Origin: Bacteroidia bacterium
GTDB lineage: Bacteria; Bacteroidota; Bacteroidia; Flavobacteriales_E; Vicingaceae
Direction of reading: 5' to 3'
Length of the DNA: 45,298 nt
Assembly: GCA_030426475.1 (NCBI GenBank)
Contig: JAUHYR010000013.1
Location: 1-45,298, forward strand
Below, in pieces: positions 20,547-41,362 of the stretch. The translations under genes and the position numbers were made by a program. The first letter of the stretch is position 1; each line of letters starts with the position of its first letter. Below the pieces are notes generated by a model. It worked only from the letters and a program-made list of their open reading frames with translations. It did not search any database and had not been told where the DNA came from.

Positions 20547-23500
20547 TTATTTACCTAGAGTTTCAGTGTTCCAAAGGGCTTCGGTAATGTTTCTGTCGTT
20601 TTTAGTATAATATACTCCACCCCATGTATAGTGTATTTTTTTATAAACGTCAGCTTTTTCTCCTTTAACTACAATTCTTTCTAAAATAATAGCATTTCCT
20701 TCTTCGTATTTCTTTTCTGTAACTCCTTGCGGACTTACTTTAGCTAAATCACTATTTTTAGGTTGTTCTTCACCTCTATAGTAAGTTAAGTTAACGTTTT
20801 CAAGGGTTTTTGCTTTATTTCTATCTATTAATTCATTTTGATAAGCGTCAATGTCTGCCTGTCTGGCAGCTATATAGTTGTATTGGCTTTGATATTTTAT
20901 ACTTCTTGCGGCAGCTTCTGATGCCAGTTGCTTGGCGTAATCTAACAACTGCTGGTTATAGTCTTGTGTTTTTTGTTGATGTTCTTTTATTTTTTGTTGT
21001 TGTGCTTCTTGATATGCTTTTTCTTGTTCTTCAACTGTTCTGTCACCTTTTTTTGCGTTGTCTCTTAAATTTTTAGCCATTCTTTGTTGGTCAATTCTTT
21101 GGTCAACAATTTTTTCAGCATTGGTTTTAGTTTTGTTGAAATTAACCTGAATAAGGTCTTGTTGTTGCTTATCTACTGAAGCCTGTAGTTTCTTTACACT
21201 TTCTTCTTTTTGTTCCCAAAGTTGATATTGATAAGCCACTTTGTCGGCAATGTCTTTTTGCATTTTTTCAACTTGTCTTTGATTGATTTCTTGTTGCGTT
21301 TGATGTTTGTCAATCATAGCTAACTTCATCTCTTGTTGTTCGTCTTGAACTTCAAAGAAATAGTTGTCTTTTTCTTTATGGCGTTCTCTGGTTTCTGCTA
21401 AAAATTCTTGCCAACTTTTTTCTTGTTGCTCCATTAATTTTACAGCATTATTTGTTTTTCGTTGTTGTGTAGCAATCAAATCATTTTGCTGTTCTGTGAC
21501 ATTCTTTTGCATCTCAACAACTACCTTATCATTTTCTAGCATTTTCTTGTATCTGTCCTCTCTGAGCTGGTCATATTTTTCTTGAATCTCTTTTAACTCT
21601 TTTTCGGCCGCTTTTCTTTGCTGTCTGCTTTTTTCCATGCGTTGTTCTTCCAATTCCTTTACTCTTTGAGAGAAATCTTCATGTTGCTGAACTTTTCTTG
21701 TATGTTCTTTAAACTGAGCTTGTGTTTCTTTTATGATTTGTTCGTTAACGGCAAGTAATTCATCAAAATTGTTTTTTCTTCTGTCTTCAGCATTCTTAAT
21801 CATATCTTGCTGTTGCTGATTTTGAGCATCAATGTATGCTTGCATTGATTTTGTTTTTTCTTCTTCACGTTTTTTAGCAAGGTCAGCCAGCATTTTTTCA
21901 ATTTCTTTTTCTTGCTTATCGTCCACAGATTTGCTTGGGCCATAGTCAATTACCACATTGTCGTTAGTATTAGTATTGGTATTTTGCTTGTTGTCTTTTT
22001 GTGCAAGAAGCATATTGATTTTATCAATTCTATTTTTCGGATAAACTTCTGCCGGCTTAAGTTTTAAAGCTTCTTTGTAGTAAAAAATAGCACTATTGTA
22101 ACTTTCAGAATCAAAGGCACCGTCAGCTTCAGCAATCATATTATTATAATTATCGTCTAAAAGTTTTTTCTCTGCTTCTGATTTTTGTTGTGCTAGTTTT
22201 TCTGCTTCTATTTGTGCCAGAATCTTTTCAATTTCTGAAATTTTAGCCGGAGGATATTTCTCTAGTGGCTTTAAATTATTTGCCTGAGTATATATTGAAA
22301 TGGCATTTTGGTATTCTTTATTACTAAAAGCTGCATCGGCTTGAGTGATTAAGTTTTTGTATTGTTCATTTAAAGCCTTTTCTTGCTCAGTTAGTTGTTG
22401 ATTGGCTAATTTTTCTGCTTCAATTTCAGCAAGTATTCTGTCAATTTTAACTATCTGATCTTTTGGATACTGCTCATTAGGTTTTATTCCCAGTGCTTCT
22501 TGATATTTACTTTTTGAATCTTCATAATTTTTAGCACCAAAGGAACCGTCTGCTTTTACAATAAGTTGACGATACTCTTCGTCCTTTTTTGCCATTTCAA
22601 TTTCAATCTTCTCTTGGTTATTTTGTTGGTTGGCAAGATCTTTTAAAATTTGCTCAATTTCAGTTATTTTCTGTTTTGGATAATCTTTATCGGGCATTAC
22701 AGATGAAGCGAGAACATAGCTTCCTTTTGCTTTGTCGTATTCTTTTTTAGCGAATTCTTCGTCAGCTTGTGCAATCAATGCTTGATAATACTCTCTTTTC
22801 TTTTGTTCAGCTTCTGCTGCTAATTTATCCTCTTTTTCCTTTTTAGCAATTTCCTCTAATTTCTTATTGATTTCGTCAATCTTTTGTTTCGGATAAGATT
22901 CTTTAGGCTTAACGTCTAATGCAAATTGATAGCCTTTCTTCGCTGCTTCGTAATTCTCATTTCCAAAATCAATATCCGCTTTAGCTATTAGGTCGTTATA
23001 TTGTTTTTCCAATGTTTCTTTTTCGGCTTTTTCAGCAGCTATTTTTGCTAAAATTTTATCTATCTCTTCAATTTTGGTTTTTGGATAAACTTCAATTGGC
23101 TTAATGCCAAGGGCAGAGTTGTAATTTTCTTTTGCCTTTTCATACTCACTACTTGCAAAGAAATCATCTGCTTTGGCAATGAAATCTTTGTATTGCTGTT
23201 CTTTTTCTTTTGCGGCTAATTCTTTTTCTTTTTGTGCTTCAAGTTCCTTTTGTTTTTCAGCCAAAATTTTATCTATTTCTTCAATTTTGGTTTTAGGGTA
23301 CTGCTCATCGGGTTTTACTACCAATGCCTTTTCATAAGCTGATTTAGCTAATTCATATTCCCAATTTCCAAAGTTTCTATCTGCCTCTTGAATATATCTG
23401 TTATAATCTTCATCTTTTTTTGCCATTGTAATAGCAATTTCTTCTTCCTCTTTTTTCTTAGAAATTAAGGCTTCAATTTCTTTTATTTTATCTTTCGGAT

Positions 23501-25604
23501 ATTGTTCGGTTGATTTAACCGCTAATGCTTCATTGTATTTATCTTTTGCCGATTCTAAGTTTTGCGCAGCTAATAATCTATCAGCTTCTGTTATGATGTT
23601 TTTATATTTTTCATCTACCGCTAGATTAGCAAGCAAGTCATCAATTGCCTTTATTTTGTCTTTCGGGTATTTCTCTTCAGGTTTTAGCTTTGCTGCTTCT
23701 TGGTAGGAAGATTTAGCTTTGTCGTAATTTTTATCACCAAAATCGGCATCTGCTTGTGCAATAAGTGAATTGTACTTTTCTGTTAACTCCTTTTCAGCTT
23801 TTTCTTTAGCAGCCAGTTCAGTCAGGATTTTCTCAATTTCTAAAATTTTATCTTTAGGATATTGTTCTTTTTCTTTTACATCTGAAGCAAATTGATAAGA
23901 GCTTTTTGCTTCTTCATAGTTTTTATCTTTGAAAAACTGGTCTGCTTTTGCAATTAAGTCAGTATACTGCTTGTCAAGCTCTTCTTGTTCTTTCTGTTTG
24001 GCTGCAAGTTCAGCTAATATCTTGTCTATTTCAGTCAGTTTATCTTTTGGGTATTGTTCGTTTTCTTTTAAATTGGATGCTTGGGTAAAGAAGTTTTTAG
24101 CTTCTTCATAATTTTCATTTTTGAAAGAAAAATCACCTTTGCCAATTAATTCGTTGTATTGCTTTTCTTTTTCTTGTTCGGCTTTTTCATTAGCTGCTAT
24201 TTCGGCAAGTTTAGCATCTATTTCAGAAATCTTTGTAACAGGATATTGTTCCTTTGGTTTTAGATTTAATGCATTTTGGTACTCTGATTTGGCTTCATTC
24301 CATTTTTCACTGGCAAGCAATTGATCAGCTTTAGCTATTATTCCTTTGTATTGTTCGTCAAGGGCTTTTGCATTGGCTAATGCATCATCTATTTCTTTGA
24401 TTTTAGTTTTCGGATAGGATTCTTCCGGCTTTATTTTTTCGGCTTCTTGGTAGGCTGATTTTGCCAATTCCCATTCTTGTGTGCTAAATAACTTATCTCC
24501 TTGCGCAATAGCAGCTTGATATTCTTTTTCTCTTTTTTCTTTTTCTAATTTTTCTTTGTTAAGTTCAGCAAGAATGGCTTCAATTTCAGCCAGCTTGTCT
24601 TTTGGATACTGTTCATTTGATTTAATGCCAAGTGCACTGTTAAAATTACTTTTTGCTTCCTCATACTTTTTTGCAACTAAAGCAGCATCTCCTTTTGATA
24701 TGTAATTTTTATAATCGGCCTCTAACTGTTGTTGTTGAGCTAAGAGTGTTTCAATTTCTTTTAGTTTGTTTGCCGGGTATTCGTCTCTTGGTTTTACTGC
24801 TAATGCTTCATTGTAAGCTGCTTTGGCATCGGCATACTTTTGTTCGTTAAAGGCCTTATCTGCTTTGGCAATAATCTGTAAGTACTGCTCTTGAGCAGCA
24901 GCATTTTTATCCAATATTTTTTGAATTTCATCCAGCTTAGTTTGTGGATAAGTTTCGTTTGGTTTTACGGTTTTTGCTTTATTGTATTCTGTTTTTGCCG
25001 TTTGCCAATCTTGCTTAGAGTAAGCTTTGTCGGCAGCAGAAATAGCTGCCGCATATTCTGCTTCTCGTTTTTTTCGCTTTTCTTCTTCTTCTTTTAGTCT
25101 GGCTGCTAATTCATCTTTTAGCCTGTCAATTTCCTTCTGGATGGATTTGGTATATTCTACATCATAATCAAAATAGCCAACGTTAGGGTCAAATCTAATT
25201 TTTGCTAATGGCTGTTTTAGAATAGAAACATCTAATCCCGGAATTTCTTCAAATAAATTCATTTCCATAGGGAATTCAAATCCGTATTTTGCATCTTCAG
25301 GGTTTACCCCTTTTGTTGAAACAAAAATGTTTTTGGAGACATGCCCGGGTTTAGTGAAATTTAATTTGTAATCTCCATCAGGATCAAGAGGAATGGTGAA
25401 TTTCCCATCAGAAGGAGTAGTGATGGTGTTTACAAGTTTTCCGTTTCTGTAAACTTCAATAACAGCACCTTCCATACGCTTCTTATCTTCTTCTTTTTTC
25501 ACCATACCCACAACGTCCAGTTTCCATTGAGAAAATAGGGTGGCAGGCGCCAGAAAAAGCACTGACAACAAGCTGATTGTTAATATCTTGTTAATAACTC
25601 TCAA
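20547..25604 (-). CDS. giant exported protein of TPR-like repeats and coiled coil
   Basis: 1685 residues, about 190 kDa. Signal peptide (1-25, ATLFSQ), then a carboxypeptidase-regulatory-like beta domain (about 28-100: VGMVKKEEDKKRMEGAVIEV ... GKFTIPLDPDGDYKLNFTKPGH). A linker coiled coil leads to 16 degenerate repeats (residues 184-1209), each opening YxxLIAKADxxF and containing the helix pair YxxAKxxYxxALxxKPxEQYP followed by KxxEIxxILA, then a charged helix. Residues about 1210-1610 are Gln/Glu/Lys-rich coiled coil with three copies of a QQxDLI motif. The end (about 1615-1685) is a small folded domain (ERIVVKGEKADVYKKIHYTWGGVYY). The start is TTG at 25604 because an in-frame TAA lies two codons upstream. 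No catalytic motif and no T9SS domain; probably periplasmic scaffold. The named function is unknown. Confidence 0.85.
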   Translation of the reverse strand: MRVINKILTISLLSVLFLAPATLFSQWKLDVVGMVKKEEDKKRMEGAVIEVYRNGKLVNTITTPSDGKFTIPLDPDGDYKLNFTKPGHVSKNIFVSTKGVNPEDAKYGFEFPMEMNLFEEIPGLDVSILKQPLAKIRFDPNVGYFDYDVEYTKSIQKEIDRLKDELAARLKEEEEKRKKREAEYAAAISAADKAYSKQDWQTAKTEYNKAKTVKPNETYPQTKLDEIQKILDKNAAAQEQYLQIIAKADKAFNEQKYADAKAAYNEALAVKPRDEYPANKLKEIETLLAQQQQLEADYKNYISKGDAALVAKKYEEAKSNFNSALGIKSNEQYPKDKLAEIEAILAELNKEKLEKEKREKEYQAAIAQGDKLFSTQEWELAKSAYQEAEKIKPEESYPKTKIKEIDDALANAKALDEQYKGIIAKADQLLASEKWNEAKSEYQNALNLKPKEQYPVTKISEIDAKLAEIAANEKAEQEKEKQYNELIGKGDFSFKNENYEEAKNFFTQASNLKENEQYPKDKLTEIDKILAELAAKQKEQEELDKQYTDLIAKADQFFKDKNYEEAKSSYQFASDVKEKEQYPKDKILEIEKILTELAAKEKAEKELTEKYNSLIAQADADFGDKNYDKAKSSYQEAAKLKPEEKYPKDKIKAIDDLLANLAVDEKYKNIITEADRLLAAQNLESAKDKYNEALAVKSTEQYPKDKIKEIEALISKKKEEEEIAITMAKKDEDYNRYIQEADRNFGNWEYELAKSAYEKALVVKPDEQYPKTKIEEIDKILAEKQKELEAQKEKELAAKEKEQQYKDFIAKADDFFASSEYEKAKENYNSALGIKPIEVYPKTKIEEIDKILAKIAAEKAEKETLEKQYNDLIAKADIDFGNENYEAAKKGYQFALDVKPKESYPKQKIDEINKKLEEIAKKEKEDKLAAEAEQKKREYYQALIAQADEEFAKKEYDKAKGSYVLASSVMPDKDYPKQKITEIEQILKDLANQQNNQEKIEIEMAKKDEEYRQLIVKADGSFGAKNYEDSKSKYQEALGIKPNEQYPKDQIVKIDRILAEIEAEKLANQQLTEQEKALNEQYKNLITQADAAFSNKEYQNAISIYTQANNLKPLEKYPPAKISEIEKILAQIEAEKLAQQKSEAEKKLLDDNYNNMIAEADGAFDSESYNSAIFYYKEALKLKPAEVYPKNRIDKINMLLAQKDNKQNTNTNTNDNVVIDYGPSKSVDDKQEKEIEKMLADLAKKREEEKTKSMQAYIDAQNQQQQDMIKNAEDRRKNNFDELLAVNEQIIKETQAQFKEHTRKVQQHEDFSQRVKELEEQRMEKSRQQRKAAEKELKEIQEKYDQLREDRYKKMLENDKVVVEMQKNVTEQQNDLIATQQRKTNNAVKLMEQQEKSWQEFLAETRERHKEKDNYFFEVQDEQQEMKLAMIDKHQTQQEINQRQVEKMQKDIADKVAYQYQLWEQKEESVKKLQASVDKQQQDLIQVNFNKTKTNAEKIVDQRIDQQRMAKNLRDNAKKGDRTVEEQEKAYQEAQQQKIKEHQQKTQDYNQQLLDYAKQLASEAAARSIKYQSQYNYIAARQADIDAYQNELIDRNKAKTLENVNLTYYRGEEQPKNSDLAKVSPQGVTEKKYEEGNAIILERIVVKGEKADVYKKIHYTWGGVYYTKNDRNITEALWNTETLGK
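21978..25055 (-). repeat. 16 tandem TPR-like protein repeats with 7-residue length steps
   Basis: Counting from the initial Tyr of one repeat to the next gives 57, 57, 64, 57, 64, 64, 64, 56, 67, 71, 64, 71, 71, 71 and 71 residues. Thirteen of fifteen are 50 plus 7, 14 or 21. The first 50 positions align without gaps; all length change is in the linker helix. The repeats are diverged at DNA level and are not a microsatellite. Confidence 0.9.
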
Positions 25605-29609: not shown

Positions 29610-30488
29610 ATGCGTTTGGAAGTATTAAAAACATATAAAATATACATTGGAGGGAAGTTCCCAAGAACTGAATCCGGTAGATATTATAAACTAAAAGTTG
29701 CAAATAAAACTATTGCTAATGTTTGCCAATGTTCCAGAAAGGACTTTAGGGAAGCGGTTGTTGTAGCTAGAAAAGCACAAGAAGGATGGAACGAGAAATC
29801 TGCTTTTAACAGAAGTCAGATTTTGTACAGAATTGCTGAAATACTTGAAGGAAGGAAAACTCAATTTATTGAAGAAATGCAATTAATGGGCATTTCAAAA
29901 AGTGTTGCAGAAAAAGAAGTTGTTTTTTCTGTAGATAGACTAGTTTATTTTGCAGGATGGTGTGATAAATATCAGCAAGTATTTAGCGGTGTCAACCCTG
30001 TTGCATCCTCACATTTCAATTTTTCTGTTAACGAACCTATGGGTGTTATAGTATCATTTGCTCCTGAAAGTTCACCACTTTTGGGATTGGTTTCTGTTAT
30101 TGCGGCACAAATTTCTGGAGGAAATTCATCAGTTGTTTTAGCTTCAGAAAAATACCCTTTAACTGCTATTACTTTTGCTGAAGTATTAAACTCATCTGAT
30201 GTTCCGGGAGGAGTGGTAAATATCTTAACAGGCTTTAGAAAAGAATTAGTAGAGCATTTTTCAACTCACATGGATGTTAATGCAATTGTATATTGTGGAA
30301 CTGATAAAAAGGAAATTGAATTGATTCAAAAAAATGCGGCAACCAATATGAAAAGAGTGAGTATATATGCTGACAAAGAAGTACTAGCGGATGAATTTGA
30401 AAATCCTTACGAAATATTGAAATTACAAGAAGTAAAAACTACCTGGCATCCTATTGAAAAAATTGGAGGTGCTTCACCCTCTTACTAA
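29610..30488 (+). CDS. pseudo-aldehyde dehydrogenase (N-terminal ALDH domain only)
   Basis: 292 residues aligning with the N-terminal cofactor-domain half of the neighbouring ALDH (YIGGKFPRTESGRYYK, AFNRSQILYRIAEILE, LVYFAGWCDKYQ, NEPMGVIVSFAPESSPLLGL, VPGGVVNILTG). Key residues are replaced: PWNFP is APESSP and KPAE is LASEK. The ELGG glutamate region reads MKRVSIYADKE, and the chain ends (WHPIEKIGGASPSY) before the catalytic cysteine would occur. The end is well formed, so this is unlikely to be a broken gene. ALDH16 proteins carry an active ALDH domain followed by a shorter non-catalytic one; this pair looks like a two-gene version. Likely a structural partner of the upstream ALDH. Confidence 0.8.
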   Translation: MRLEVLKTYKIYIGGKFPRTESGRYYKLKVANKTIANVCQCSRKDFREAVVVARKAQEGWNEKSAFNRSQILYRIAEILEGRKTQFIEEMQLMGISKSVAEKEVVFSVDRLVYFAGWCDKYQQVFSGVNPVASSHFNFSVNEPMGVIVSFAPESSPLLGLVSVIAAQISGGNSSVVLASEKYPLTAITFAEVLNSSDVPGGVVNILTGFRKELVEHFSTHMDVNAIVYCGTDKKEIELIQKNAATNMKRVSIYADKEVLADEFENPYEILKLQEVKTTWHPIEKIGGASPSY

Positions 30489-34632: not shown

Positions 34633-36462
34633 ATGAAAAGAATCGGATTGATAGTATTTTTATTAGTAGCGGTAAATATGTTTAGTCAGGACAAATATGT
34701 TTATGAACTGAATATTTCTAAAATCGATAATGACCAGGTAGAAGTAACACTTTATACACCAAAAGTTAAAGAAGACCAAGTGTTTTTCCGATTGCCTAAA
34801 ATAGTTCCCGGCACTTACGAAATTTATGATTTTGGCCAATATGTTTCAAATCTTAAAGCAGTAGATGAGGCAGGTAATGAAATGGATTTAGAAAAAATAG
34901 ATATGGATAGTTGGGCAATTAGTAACCCTAAAGAGTTATATCAAATTACCTACACTATTGATGATACTTGGGACGATACTAAAGCAGACAAAAAAGTATT
35001 TGAACCTGCCGGAACTAATATTGATACCAATAATATCTTAATCAATACGCATGGTTTTTTTGGTTATTTAGACGGATATGAAAAGCTTCCATTTGAGCTA
35101 AATATTACTCATCCTAAAACATATTACGGTTCTTCTGCCATTATGAATGTGAAATATTCTGATACTAAAGATGTATTTACGGTTAGCAACTATCATGAAT
35201 TGGTTGACCAACCAATTATGTATAATGTGCCTGATACCACTATCATGAAAATAGGAAATACAGATGTTTTAATTTCTGTTTTTTCTCCCAACAAGGTTTT
35301 AAAATCTAAAGAAATCAAGCCTTATTTAGATGATATTTTAAATGCCCAACAAAAATATTTAGGAACACTTCCGGTTAAAAAATATGCTTTTTTACTTTAC
35401 TTTTTTGATGCGTCACAAGGTTTTGAAGGCGGTGTTGGGGCGCTAGAACATTCTTATTCTTCGGTATATTATTTACCCGAAACAGAAATAAAAAACATTG
35501 CTCCAATGATTGCTGATGTGGCTGCTCATGAGTTTTTTCATATCGTAACACCGCTAAATGTACATTCAGAAGAAATCCACTATTTCGATTTTTATCGTCC
35601 TCAAATGTCAAAACATCTATGGCTGTATGAAGGGGTCACGGAGTACTTTGCTCACCATGTACAAGTTCAATATGGTTTAAAGTCGGTAGAAGATTATATC
35701 GACCAAATTATGGCGCAGGTGCAAGAGTCGAAAAATTATAACGAAGAGCTTTCATTTACTAAAATGAGTAAATACTGCCTGGAAGATTATCAAAACGAAT
35801 ATGGAAATGTTTACCAAAAAGGTGCTTTAATTGGTTTATGTGTAGATATTTTACTTAGACATTATTCTGACGGAAGTTATACATTGGAGAATTTATTAGA
35901 TACGCTTTCAAAAGATTTTGGAAAAAATAAACCGTTTAAAGACGATGAGTTGTTTGAATACATTGCAGATAAAACATATCCCGAAATGTTGGAGTTCTTT
36001 AGAAATCATGTGGAAGAGCCTGCTCCGCTTCCGTTAGTTGAAGTGTTAGACTATGTGGGAATTCGTTATTTAGAACCTAGAATGGAAAAGGGGTTGAGTC
36101 TTGGAGGAATTTCAATGGGGCTTAATTTAGAGTACGAACGACCAATGGTAATAAGTACCGAAGATATGAATGAGTTTGGTAAGGCAGTGGGTTATCAAGA
36201 GGGAGATGTAATTCTTAAGGTTAACAAAGAAAAACTGGATTTGGCTAATATGGTTAACGTAATTGAAGATTTTTATGCTAACGTTCAACCGGGTGATGTA
36301 GTTAAAATACAGCTGTTAAGGAAAGAAGGCGATAAAATGAAAAAGAAGAAAATCAAATTGAAAATATTTGAAGTGGATGTACTATCAAAACCCACAATGG
36401 AAATTATTGAAACACCAACTCCTGAACAATTAAAACTTCGAAAAAACTGGTTAAACCAATAA
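34633..36462 (+). CDS. exported M61 family metallopeptidase with PDZ domain
   Basis: 609 residues. Signal peptide (1-18, VNMFSQ). N-terminal beta domain of the M61 glycyl-aminopeptidase family; zinc site HEFFH at 299-303 with the third ligand in LYEGVTEYF (E333). A C-terminal PDZ domain is at about 500-590 (AVGYQEGDVILKVNKEKL). Expected to act in the periplasm on peptides. It is the first gene of a run: the sensor kinase starts 4 bases after its stop and the response regulator follows. A second M61 gene at 39647 lacks a signal peptide. Confidence 0.93.
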   Translation: MKRIGLIVFLLVAVNMFSQDKYVYELNISKIDNDQVEVTLYTPKVKEDQVFFRLPKIVPGTYEIYDFGQYVSNLKAVDEAGNEMDLEKIDMDSWAISNPKELYQITYTIDDTWDDTKADKKVFEPAGTNIDTNNILINTHGFFGYLDGYEKLPFELNITHPKTYYGSSAIMNVKYSDTKDVFTVSNYHELVDQPIMYNVPDTTIMKIGNTDVLISVFSPNKVLKSKEIKPYLDDILNAQQKYLGTLPVKKYAFLLYFFDASQGFEGGVGALEHSYSSVYYLPETEIKNIAPMIADVAAHEFFHIVTPLNVHSEEIHYFDFYRPQMSKHLWLYEGVTEYFAHHVQVQYGLKSVEDYIDQIMAQVQESKNYNEELSFTKMSKYCLEDYQNEYGNVYQKGALIGLCVDILLRHYSDGSYTLENLLDTLSKDFGKNKPFKDDELFEYIADKTYPEMLEFFRNHVEEPAPLPLVEVLDYVGIRYLEPRMEKGLSLGGISMGLNLEYERPMVISTEDMNEFGKAVGYQEGDVILKVNKEKLDLANMVNVIEDFYANVQPGDVVKIQLLRKEGDKMKKKKIKLKIFEVDVLSKPTMEIIETPTPEQLKLRKNWLNQ

Positions 36463-39646: not shown

Positions 39647-41362
39647 TCAATTTGACCACTTATCGAAATTATTATTTGTTTCATCATTTGTTTTTCCATG
39701 CTTTTCAACAGAATACTTCTTATAATAAGAATTATTTTTGTCTATTGTTAATAGTATGTTTTTTTGTCCTTCATAGGGCTTGTTTACCCCAAGCGTTACT
39801 TCTTTTTCGTCTTTAAAATACTCGCACCAGCTATTGAAGTCATTATGAATGGTTTTATTATTGATGCTTACGATTTCGTCTCCCCAGCTAAGTCCTATTT
39901 TTTCGGCATTGCAATCAGGGTAAAGTGTATTTACTATTGTTTTTCCATTCTGCTCTATGGTTTTAATTCCCATAAATGTTTCTGCAAAGTTGATGCTTTC
40001 TTCTTTTAGTTCAAGCCCTAAATAACTTAAAGCATTTTTTAAGTAAGGAGAGAAATCACTAACTCCATAATAAAGGTTTTCAAATAACTCGGCAATTTCT
40101 TCTCTCGCAAGTTTGGTTACTTCAGTAATAAAATCAGCTTCACTTACTCCTTTATTTTTCTTGGCATATTCAAAATAGAGAGTTCTCATTAAATCGTCTA
40201 AACTTTTTTCATTATTTGATTTTTTTCTAATCCAAACATCAGTAATAAAAGCACATAAAGCACCTTCGGTATATATAGAAACTTTTCTGTTTGGAATTCC
40301 TTTATTATAACCGTCTAGCCATGTATCGAATGAGGAATTGGCAACGCTTAAATTAAATCTTCCAAAATTGGAATAGTGGCGCTCCAGTAGTTGGTCAAAT
40401 GTTTTTTTATACTGTTCAAAACTGAATGTTTTTGAGCGGAGCAAAAACAAATCTCCATAATAAGTGGTAATACCTTCTGCCAAATATCCAAGTCTAGTAT
40501 AATTTTCTTTGGAGTAATCGTAAGGCATCATTTCTATGGGGCGAATTTTTTTAATATTCCAGGCATGGAATAGTTCATGAGAACTTACTCCCAGCAATTC
40601 TTCATACCAACCCTTCATTAAATCATGTGATGGTCCCAAAGCAATTACGGTTGAATTGCAATGCTCAACACCATGGTAAAATCTAGCGGGCAAAATTTCA
40701 AACATGAAGTGATAGTCTTCAAAAGGAAACTCCTTCATGGTTTTTAACTGGCTCTCTGTAAAAGGGATGAAGTCATTTTTAATTCTCTCAAAGTTTGGTT
40801 TGGCGTCTCCCTGAAACCACAAATGAAAAGTGGTGTTGTTTACTTCATAAGAATCATGAATTATGTTAGGCGATGCAATCACAGGACAATCCACCAACTC
40901 ATGGAAGTCGTTTGCAACAAAAGCATTTTTGCTACTTGATTTTAACCCTGTTGCAACTATAAAATTTTCAGGAATGTTAAGTGTTAAAGAGCATTTGTCT
41001 TCCATTTTTTCTTTTACATATAGGAATAAGTTTACACCATTAAAGTATAGGTGGTCTTCTCCTATATAAGATGATCCGGCATTAATTTCATTGGCGTAAT
41101 AGGTGTATTCTACTCTAATTCTTTTGCAATTTTTGGTGTCTACATTCCAGCAGTCTTTACTTGTTTTTTTGAAATTAAGTTCTTCGCCATTTTCATTATA
41201 AGCTTTCCATTTTCCTATGTTTTTAGCAAAATTGCCTAGCTCATATCTTCCCGGTCGCCATGCCGGTAAATGAATTTCGGTAAAATCTGAATTTACCTCA
41301 GTTTCAAATTTAATATGGATAAAATGTTTATTGGGTTCTTGGTAAGTAATCGTATAGTTCAT
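39647..41362 (-). CDS. M61 family metallopeptidase with PDZ domain, no signal peptide
   Basis: 571 residues. M61 N-terminal beta domain (IHLPAWRPGRYELGNFAKNI), zinc motif HELFH at 262-266 and third ligand in YLAEGITTYYGDL (E296), followed by the M61 helical domain and a PDZ domain at about 455-545 (IKTIEQNGKTIVNTLYPDCNAEKIGLSWGDEIVSINNK). Closer to the M61 consensus than the exported paralogue at 34633. It has no signal sequence, so it is expected in the cytosol. Own promoter region (-7 TAAATTTG at 41406-41413, minus). Confidence 0.93.
   Translation of the reverse strand: MNYTITYQEPNKHFIHIKFETEVNSDFTEIHLPAWRPGRYELGNFAKNIGKWKAYNENGEELNFKKTSKDCWNVDTKNCKRIRVEYTYYANEINAGSSYIGEDHLYFNGVNLFLYVKEKMEDKCSLTLNIPENFIVATGLKSSSKNAFVANDFHELVDCPVIASPNIIHDSYEVNNTTFHLWFQGDAKPNFERIKNDFIPFTESQLKTMKEFPFEDYHFMFEILPARFYHGVEHCNSTVIALGPSHDLMKGWYEELLGVSSHELFHAWNIKKIRPIEMMPYDYSKENYTRLGYLAEGITTYYGDLFLLRSKTFSFEQYKKTFDQLLERHYSNFGRFNLSVANSSFDTWLDGYNKGIPNRKVSIYTEGALCAFITDVWIRKKSNNEKSLDDLMRTLYFEYAKKNKGVSEADFITEVTKLAREEIAELFENLYYGVSDFSPYLKNALSYLGLELKEESINFAETFMGIKTIEQNGKTIVNTLYPDCNAEKIGLSWGDEIVSINNKTIHNDFNSWCEYFKDEKEVTLGVNKPYEGQKNILLTIDKNNSYYKKYSVEKHGKTNDETNNNFDKWSN

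Follow-up and report, generated by a model that had tools for sequence, protein, structure and literature searches.

What sets the distance between the repeats of a protein when that distance seems to grow in steps of exactly seven residues? The question is raised by a gene in a 45,298-nucleotide stretch of DNA (the window) from a bacterium of the family Vicingaceae, class Bacteroidia. A sequence-only reading had answered it with heptads: linker helices would keep coiled-coil phase between TPR hairpins and so form a stiff rod. The open reading frame, which is free of internal stops, divides as follows.

20547..25604, minus strand: whole gene, 1685 residues, TTG start
25530..25604, minus strand: N-terminal signal peptide MRVINKILTISLLSVLFLAPATLFS, assigned by eye from the sequence
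25107..25529, minus strand: N-terminal end domain FEFPMEMNLFEEIPGLDVSIL...YTKS, a carboxypeptidase-regulatory/transthyretin-like beta domain with a conserved extension
22002..25064, minus strand: 16 TPR-helix repeats, each with a 52-residue gapless core, spaced 56-71 residues apart
20811..21920, minus strand: helical tail of about 370 residues, hydrophobic period 3.60
20550..20756, minus strand: beta-rich C-terminal end domain of about 69 residues, conserved across about half of the class genomes sampled

We anchored the repeats on the motif YPxxK[IL] and obtained 16 of them, with start-to-start spacings, from the N to the C terminus, of 57, 57, 64, 57, 64, 64, 64, 56, 67, 71, 64, 71, 71, 71 and 71. 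This reproduces exactly what had been read from the sequence: 13 of the 15 spacings are 57, 64 or 71, and the exceptions are 56 and 67. The core, previously put at 50 residues, is gapless over 52 in all 16 repeats. A naive binomial calculation gives a chance of about 3e-10 that 13 of 15 spacings fall in one residue class, but this figure is too favorable, since the length of a tandem repeat is copied along with it, and homologues provide the real test. Much of the strict seven-residue step in the giant protein can be the shared ancestry of duplicated repeats. DNA slippage was also considered as the origin of the steps and rejected: self-similarity of the spacer DNA at seven codons (21 nt) was not above that at other shifts, which excludes recent slippage only.

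Among 72 homologous ORFs, the spacings form the set 53, 56-57, 60, 63-64, 67-68, 71, 74, 78 and 81, with some members also showing 69, 70, 65 and 62. In the protein's own family, 57, 64 and 71 dominate and the main exceptions are 60, 67 and 68. Elsewhere the dominant length is 60, 64, 67, 68, 71 or 81, in patterns that include 67 combined with 71, runs of 60 or of 56, and 64 or 81 alone. Periodicity was scored with one vote per family and length, giving 65 votes from 13 families that are not fully independent of each other. The best period was 3.6 residues (R 0.52, scan-corrected P at most 0.0002), and the same period emerged when the own family was left out (R 0.57, scan-corrected P at most 0.0002). 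Period 7 was absent across families (R 0.07), whereas the own family alone gave R 0.77 at that period. The enrichment for 1 modulo 7 that the heptad reading foresaw in homologues is not found outside the own family, where R is 0.04 at 7 against 0.57 at 3.6. Together, these results imply that the quantum of length is the turn of the alpha-helix and that the seven-residue step is a habit of one family.

Across homologues, most differences in spacer length amount to whole helix turns (3-4, 7 or 11 residues), with a period of 3.6. Between orthologue pairs, 1446 linkers were unchanged; the changes were mostly of 7 (130), 4 (94) or 3 (36) residues, and changes of 1-2 residues were few (39), although the events behind these pair counts are not independent. 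Between the N-terminal domain and the first repeat lie mainly 22, 26, 30 or 33 residues, which agrees with the turn rule in the few lineages concerned. The claim that linker length is constrained to hold phase between TPR hairpins therefore survives in part: the constraint recurs in other families, but heptads and coiled coil do not stand as its cause. As a separate observation, almost every member of the own family, for example at loci L007, L012 and L112, has repeats that lengthen from the N to the C terminus (57, then 64, then 71), and this rise persists despite differing repeat numbers.

Between the YP motif and the following helix A, proline and glycine are nearly absent from the spacers; the additional residues are K, E and A, and large hydrophobics account for 12-15%. 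Charge pairs at i to i+4 have opposite signs in a fraction of 0.86-0.99, compared with 0.55-0.57 after shuffling, and salt bridges from i to i+3 and from i to i+4 are the signature of single alpha-helices (PMC12203971). The spacers look like single alpha-helices rather than coiled coil. Like single alpha-helix (ER/K) spacers such as that of drebrin (PMC12203971), they are E/K-rich, with opposite charges at i to i+4 and no hydrophobic seam; unlike it, they are short, at 5-19 residues beyond the core, recur many times and are joined end to end with TPR helices. Coiled-coil linkers, as originally proposed, are unsupported because the hydrophobic a/d positions are missing in the spacers.

The protein had also been said to end in about 400 residues of plain coiled coil. 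Instead, it has about 370 helical residues with a period of 3.60, not 3.5, and beyond them the conserved C-terminal beta domain of about 69 residues, which had been missed. Over the tail (about 369 residues), the power of large hydrophobics was 20.9 at period 3.60 and 1.4 at 3.5. Most tails of the own family likewise peak at 3.60, with one subgroup mostly at 3.63-3.66. AlphaFold draws the tail, with low confidence, as a single helix of 370 residues. Such a period is what a nearly straight helical bundle would show, and it does not match a plain heptad coiled coil.

Both ends of the protein carry conserved domains. The N-terminal domain scored 31.9 bits with the Pfam carboxypeptidase regulatory-like model (PF13620), just under the cut-off of 32.3, and its predicted structure matched the transthyretin-like domain of carboxypeptidase D over 81 residues at 2.0 A. 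The fold of this beta domain is shared with the PF13620 domain; the sub-threshold score and a conserved extension of its own, present throughout the protein family, set it apart. Of the N-terminal features that had been described, the domain is thus supported by a structure match, and the signal peptide stays an assignment by eye, with its hydrophobic stretch also found in homologues. At the other end, no type 9 C-terminal sorting domain (for example, Por_Secre_tail) was matched by Pfam; the C terminus is the family's own domain, for which a PDB sequence search gave no solved relative. The same search returned only generic TPRs for the repeats, which reached 66.5 bits with TPR_2 (PF07719; cut-off 27), and matches in a viral fold library were generic TPR and carboxypeptidase-like. 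The signal peptide seen by eye and the absence of a type 9 sorting domain are the grounds on which we predict the protein to be exported and probably periplasmic.

The giant gene and its relatives are no quirk of a single genome. Relatives are encoded in 44 of 46 genomes of the own family, Vicingaceae (32 of 32 complete ones), and the named ones come from Flavobacteriales MAGs, one of them labelled Vicingaceae. Across the wider class, 192 of 395 sampled genomes encode the N-terminal domain, and 94 of 198 encode the C-terminal one. At the loci at hand, 66 of the 80 ORFs carrying one end domain carry both, the C-terminal domain always lies at most 15 residues from the protein end, and the middles between them range from 189 to 2019 residues and from 0 to 24 repeats. 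About half of the class therefore has these two caps around middles that vary. A literature search found no relevant named TPR, heptad or periplasmic family.

How might the repeats be arranged? An AlphaFold2 model of residues 25-675 (mean pLDDT 87, pTM 0.39) shows the beta domain, followed by alternating long helices (35-43 residues) and short ones (14, helix B). In a model of residues 657-1685 (mean pLDDT 70, pTM 0.25), the 71-spaced repeats have helices of about 50 residues, with pLDDT falling to 58-69 in mid-linker. These low pTM values and mid-linker scores leave the geometry between nodes as a prediction. Taken singly, a node superimposes over 50-57 residues on solved TPRs at about 1 A (Cpr7, 57 residues at 1.0 A). 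When several nodes are aligned together, most fits fail at about 25-55 A, in models with low pTM; global Foldseek superpositions, with TM-scores of about 0.1, were uninformative. The helix A/B hairpin and the TPR consensus are common to this protein and to TPR proteins (PF07719), including the envelope structure matches PilF, NlpI and BamD. However, ordinary TPRs stack every 34 residues, whereas here there is one hairpin per 57-71 residues, with predicted continuous helices between. In spectrin-type three-helix repeats, too, the last helix of a unit runs on into the first of the next; the giant protein differs from these in its TPR hairpin nodes, short middle helix and variable unit length. 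The stiff rod that had been proposed keeps its predicted continuous linkers and its predicted extended, exported form, but loses its heptad, coiled-coil basis.

The protein has two conserved caps and a middle of 16 single TPR hairpins, each comprising helices A and B and the start of the next helix. We favor the reading, with a probability of roughly 0.6, that it is exported, probably to the periplasm, and forms an extended scaffold whose TPR nodes are turn-phased. In each node, the third helix is predicted to continue unbroken through the charged spacer into helix A of the next node, so that nodes would sit on long helices in a spectrin-like topology, without stacking into a TPR superhelix. 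Nodes that do not touch would fold well at any spacer length, yet whole turns are kept, suggesting that rotation between neighbors matters. Selection may therefore keep the relative rotation of neighboring TPR faces, and a lateral partner, either another copy or an elongated ligand, would meet the docking faces of the rod in fixed register. Lineages could alter the reach of the rod by adding turns or repeats with the register unchanged; the 370-residue tail may self-associate into a helical bundle that is nearly straight, and the end domains may anchor or dock. A rough straight-line upper bound for the fully extended length is about 65 nm for the repeats and about 55 nm for the tail. Because a periplasm is narrower than this, the rod would not span the envelope but run along it or fold back.

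A wider proposal is more tentative, and we put it somewhat short of an even bet: that there is a class-wide family of envelope rods, with module spacing under selection for steps of one alpha-helix turn across a dozen bacterial families. The repeated single-alpha-helix spacers would then make a length-adjustable, phase-locked ruler, which in the own family would end in a straight helical bundle of unusual length (period 3.60). What most likely replaces the heptad reading is helix-turn phase with single-alpha-helix spacers, in a TPR protein of unnamed cap architecture. The conserved N- and C-terminal caps and variable middle make this a widespread architecture, found in about half of the sampled class genomes, and it provides a natural, many-times-repeated test case of helical phase versus insertions between repeat modules. 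Protein designers gain a ready set of turn-quantised spacers.

Spacing could, alternatively, be free of selection. The classes 57, 64 and 71 would each have arisen once and spread by tandem duplication, with the modulo-7 pattern as shared ancestry. The order of the classes along the protein, and its retention between orthologues in the 1446 unchanged linkers, speak for this. We nevertheless think it unlikely, because the quantised lengths differ from family to family and orthologue changes are mostly of 3, 4, 7 or 11 residues, rarely of 1-2 or 5-6. It is less likely again that the linkers pair as coiled coils whose phase fixes their length in heptads. Although 1 modulo 7 describes 13 of the 15 spacings and most of the own family's (R 0.77 at 7), other families lack period 7, the linkers have the charge pairing of single alpha-helices in place of a/d hydrophobics, and the tail has no power at 3.5. 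An ordinary compact TPR solenoid with helical insertions, acting as a generic protein-interaction domain, is about equally improbable: the TPR_2 score of 66.5 bits and the fit of each node to solved TPRs at about 1 A would be expected of it, but not the continuous 35-50-residue helices between nodes in the models, nor the failure of most multi-repeat alignments at about 25-55 A.

We give slightly less weight still to a role in the gliding or type 9 secretion track, or in its scaffold. In its favor, GldJ and GldM are present in the genome, and gliding Bacteroidota are known to have envelope filaments (PMC9870892, PMC12635249). However, the published track model contains GldK, GldN and GldJ, not a TPR rod (PMC12635249), and the neighbors of the giant gene are not gliding genes. 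Co-distribution with gliding genes says nothing here, because GldJ and GldM are near-universal in the class and the end domains occur in about half of it.

The scaffold reading that we prefer gains nothing from the gene neighborhood, which is not conserved between the window and sister loci: aroB, mscL and deoC in the former, and folP, an ABC permease and tpiA in the latter, are all housekeeping genes. At six sister loci, a gene for a secreted protein of about 330 residues overlaps the giant gene or follows within about 80 bases (L007:13094-14080, L008:8673-9662, L010:12869-13915, L011:12875-13885, L013:12908-13903 and L015:10991-11983). It is a possible operon partner, and is absent beside the giant gene in the window. 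The one copy searched had no Pfam or PDB match; by eye, the C-terminal part appears to resemble a LecA-type lectin.

Several minor observations concern the rest of the window and other loci. A 292-residue ORF at 29610-30488 of the window matches aldehyde dehydrogenase over its N-terminal half only (profile 16-233 of 461), and comes directly after deoC and a full-length aldehyde dehydrogenase to which it is 31% identical. Two divergent M61 glycyl aminopeptidase paralogues, with 22% identity, lie at 34633-36462 and 39647-41362. A 903-residue paralogue of the giant protein in the same genome (G000, contig C112, L136:8125-10836) has the same N-terminal domain and repeats, with spacings mostly of 64, and adjoins a PD40-OmpA protein and a type 9 secreted protein. 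Finally, in one genome several proteins with the N-terminal cap are clustered on one strand (L092:6669-16027), and at least one of these has both caps without TPR repeats.
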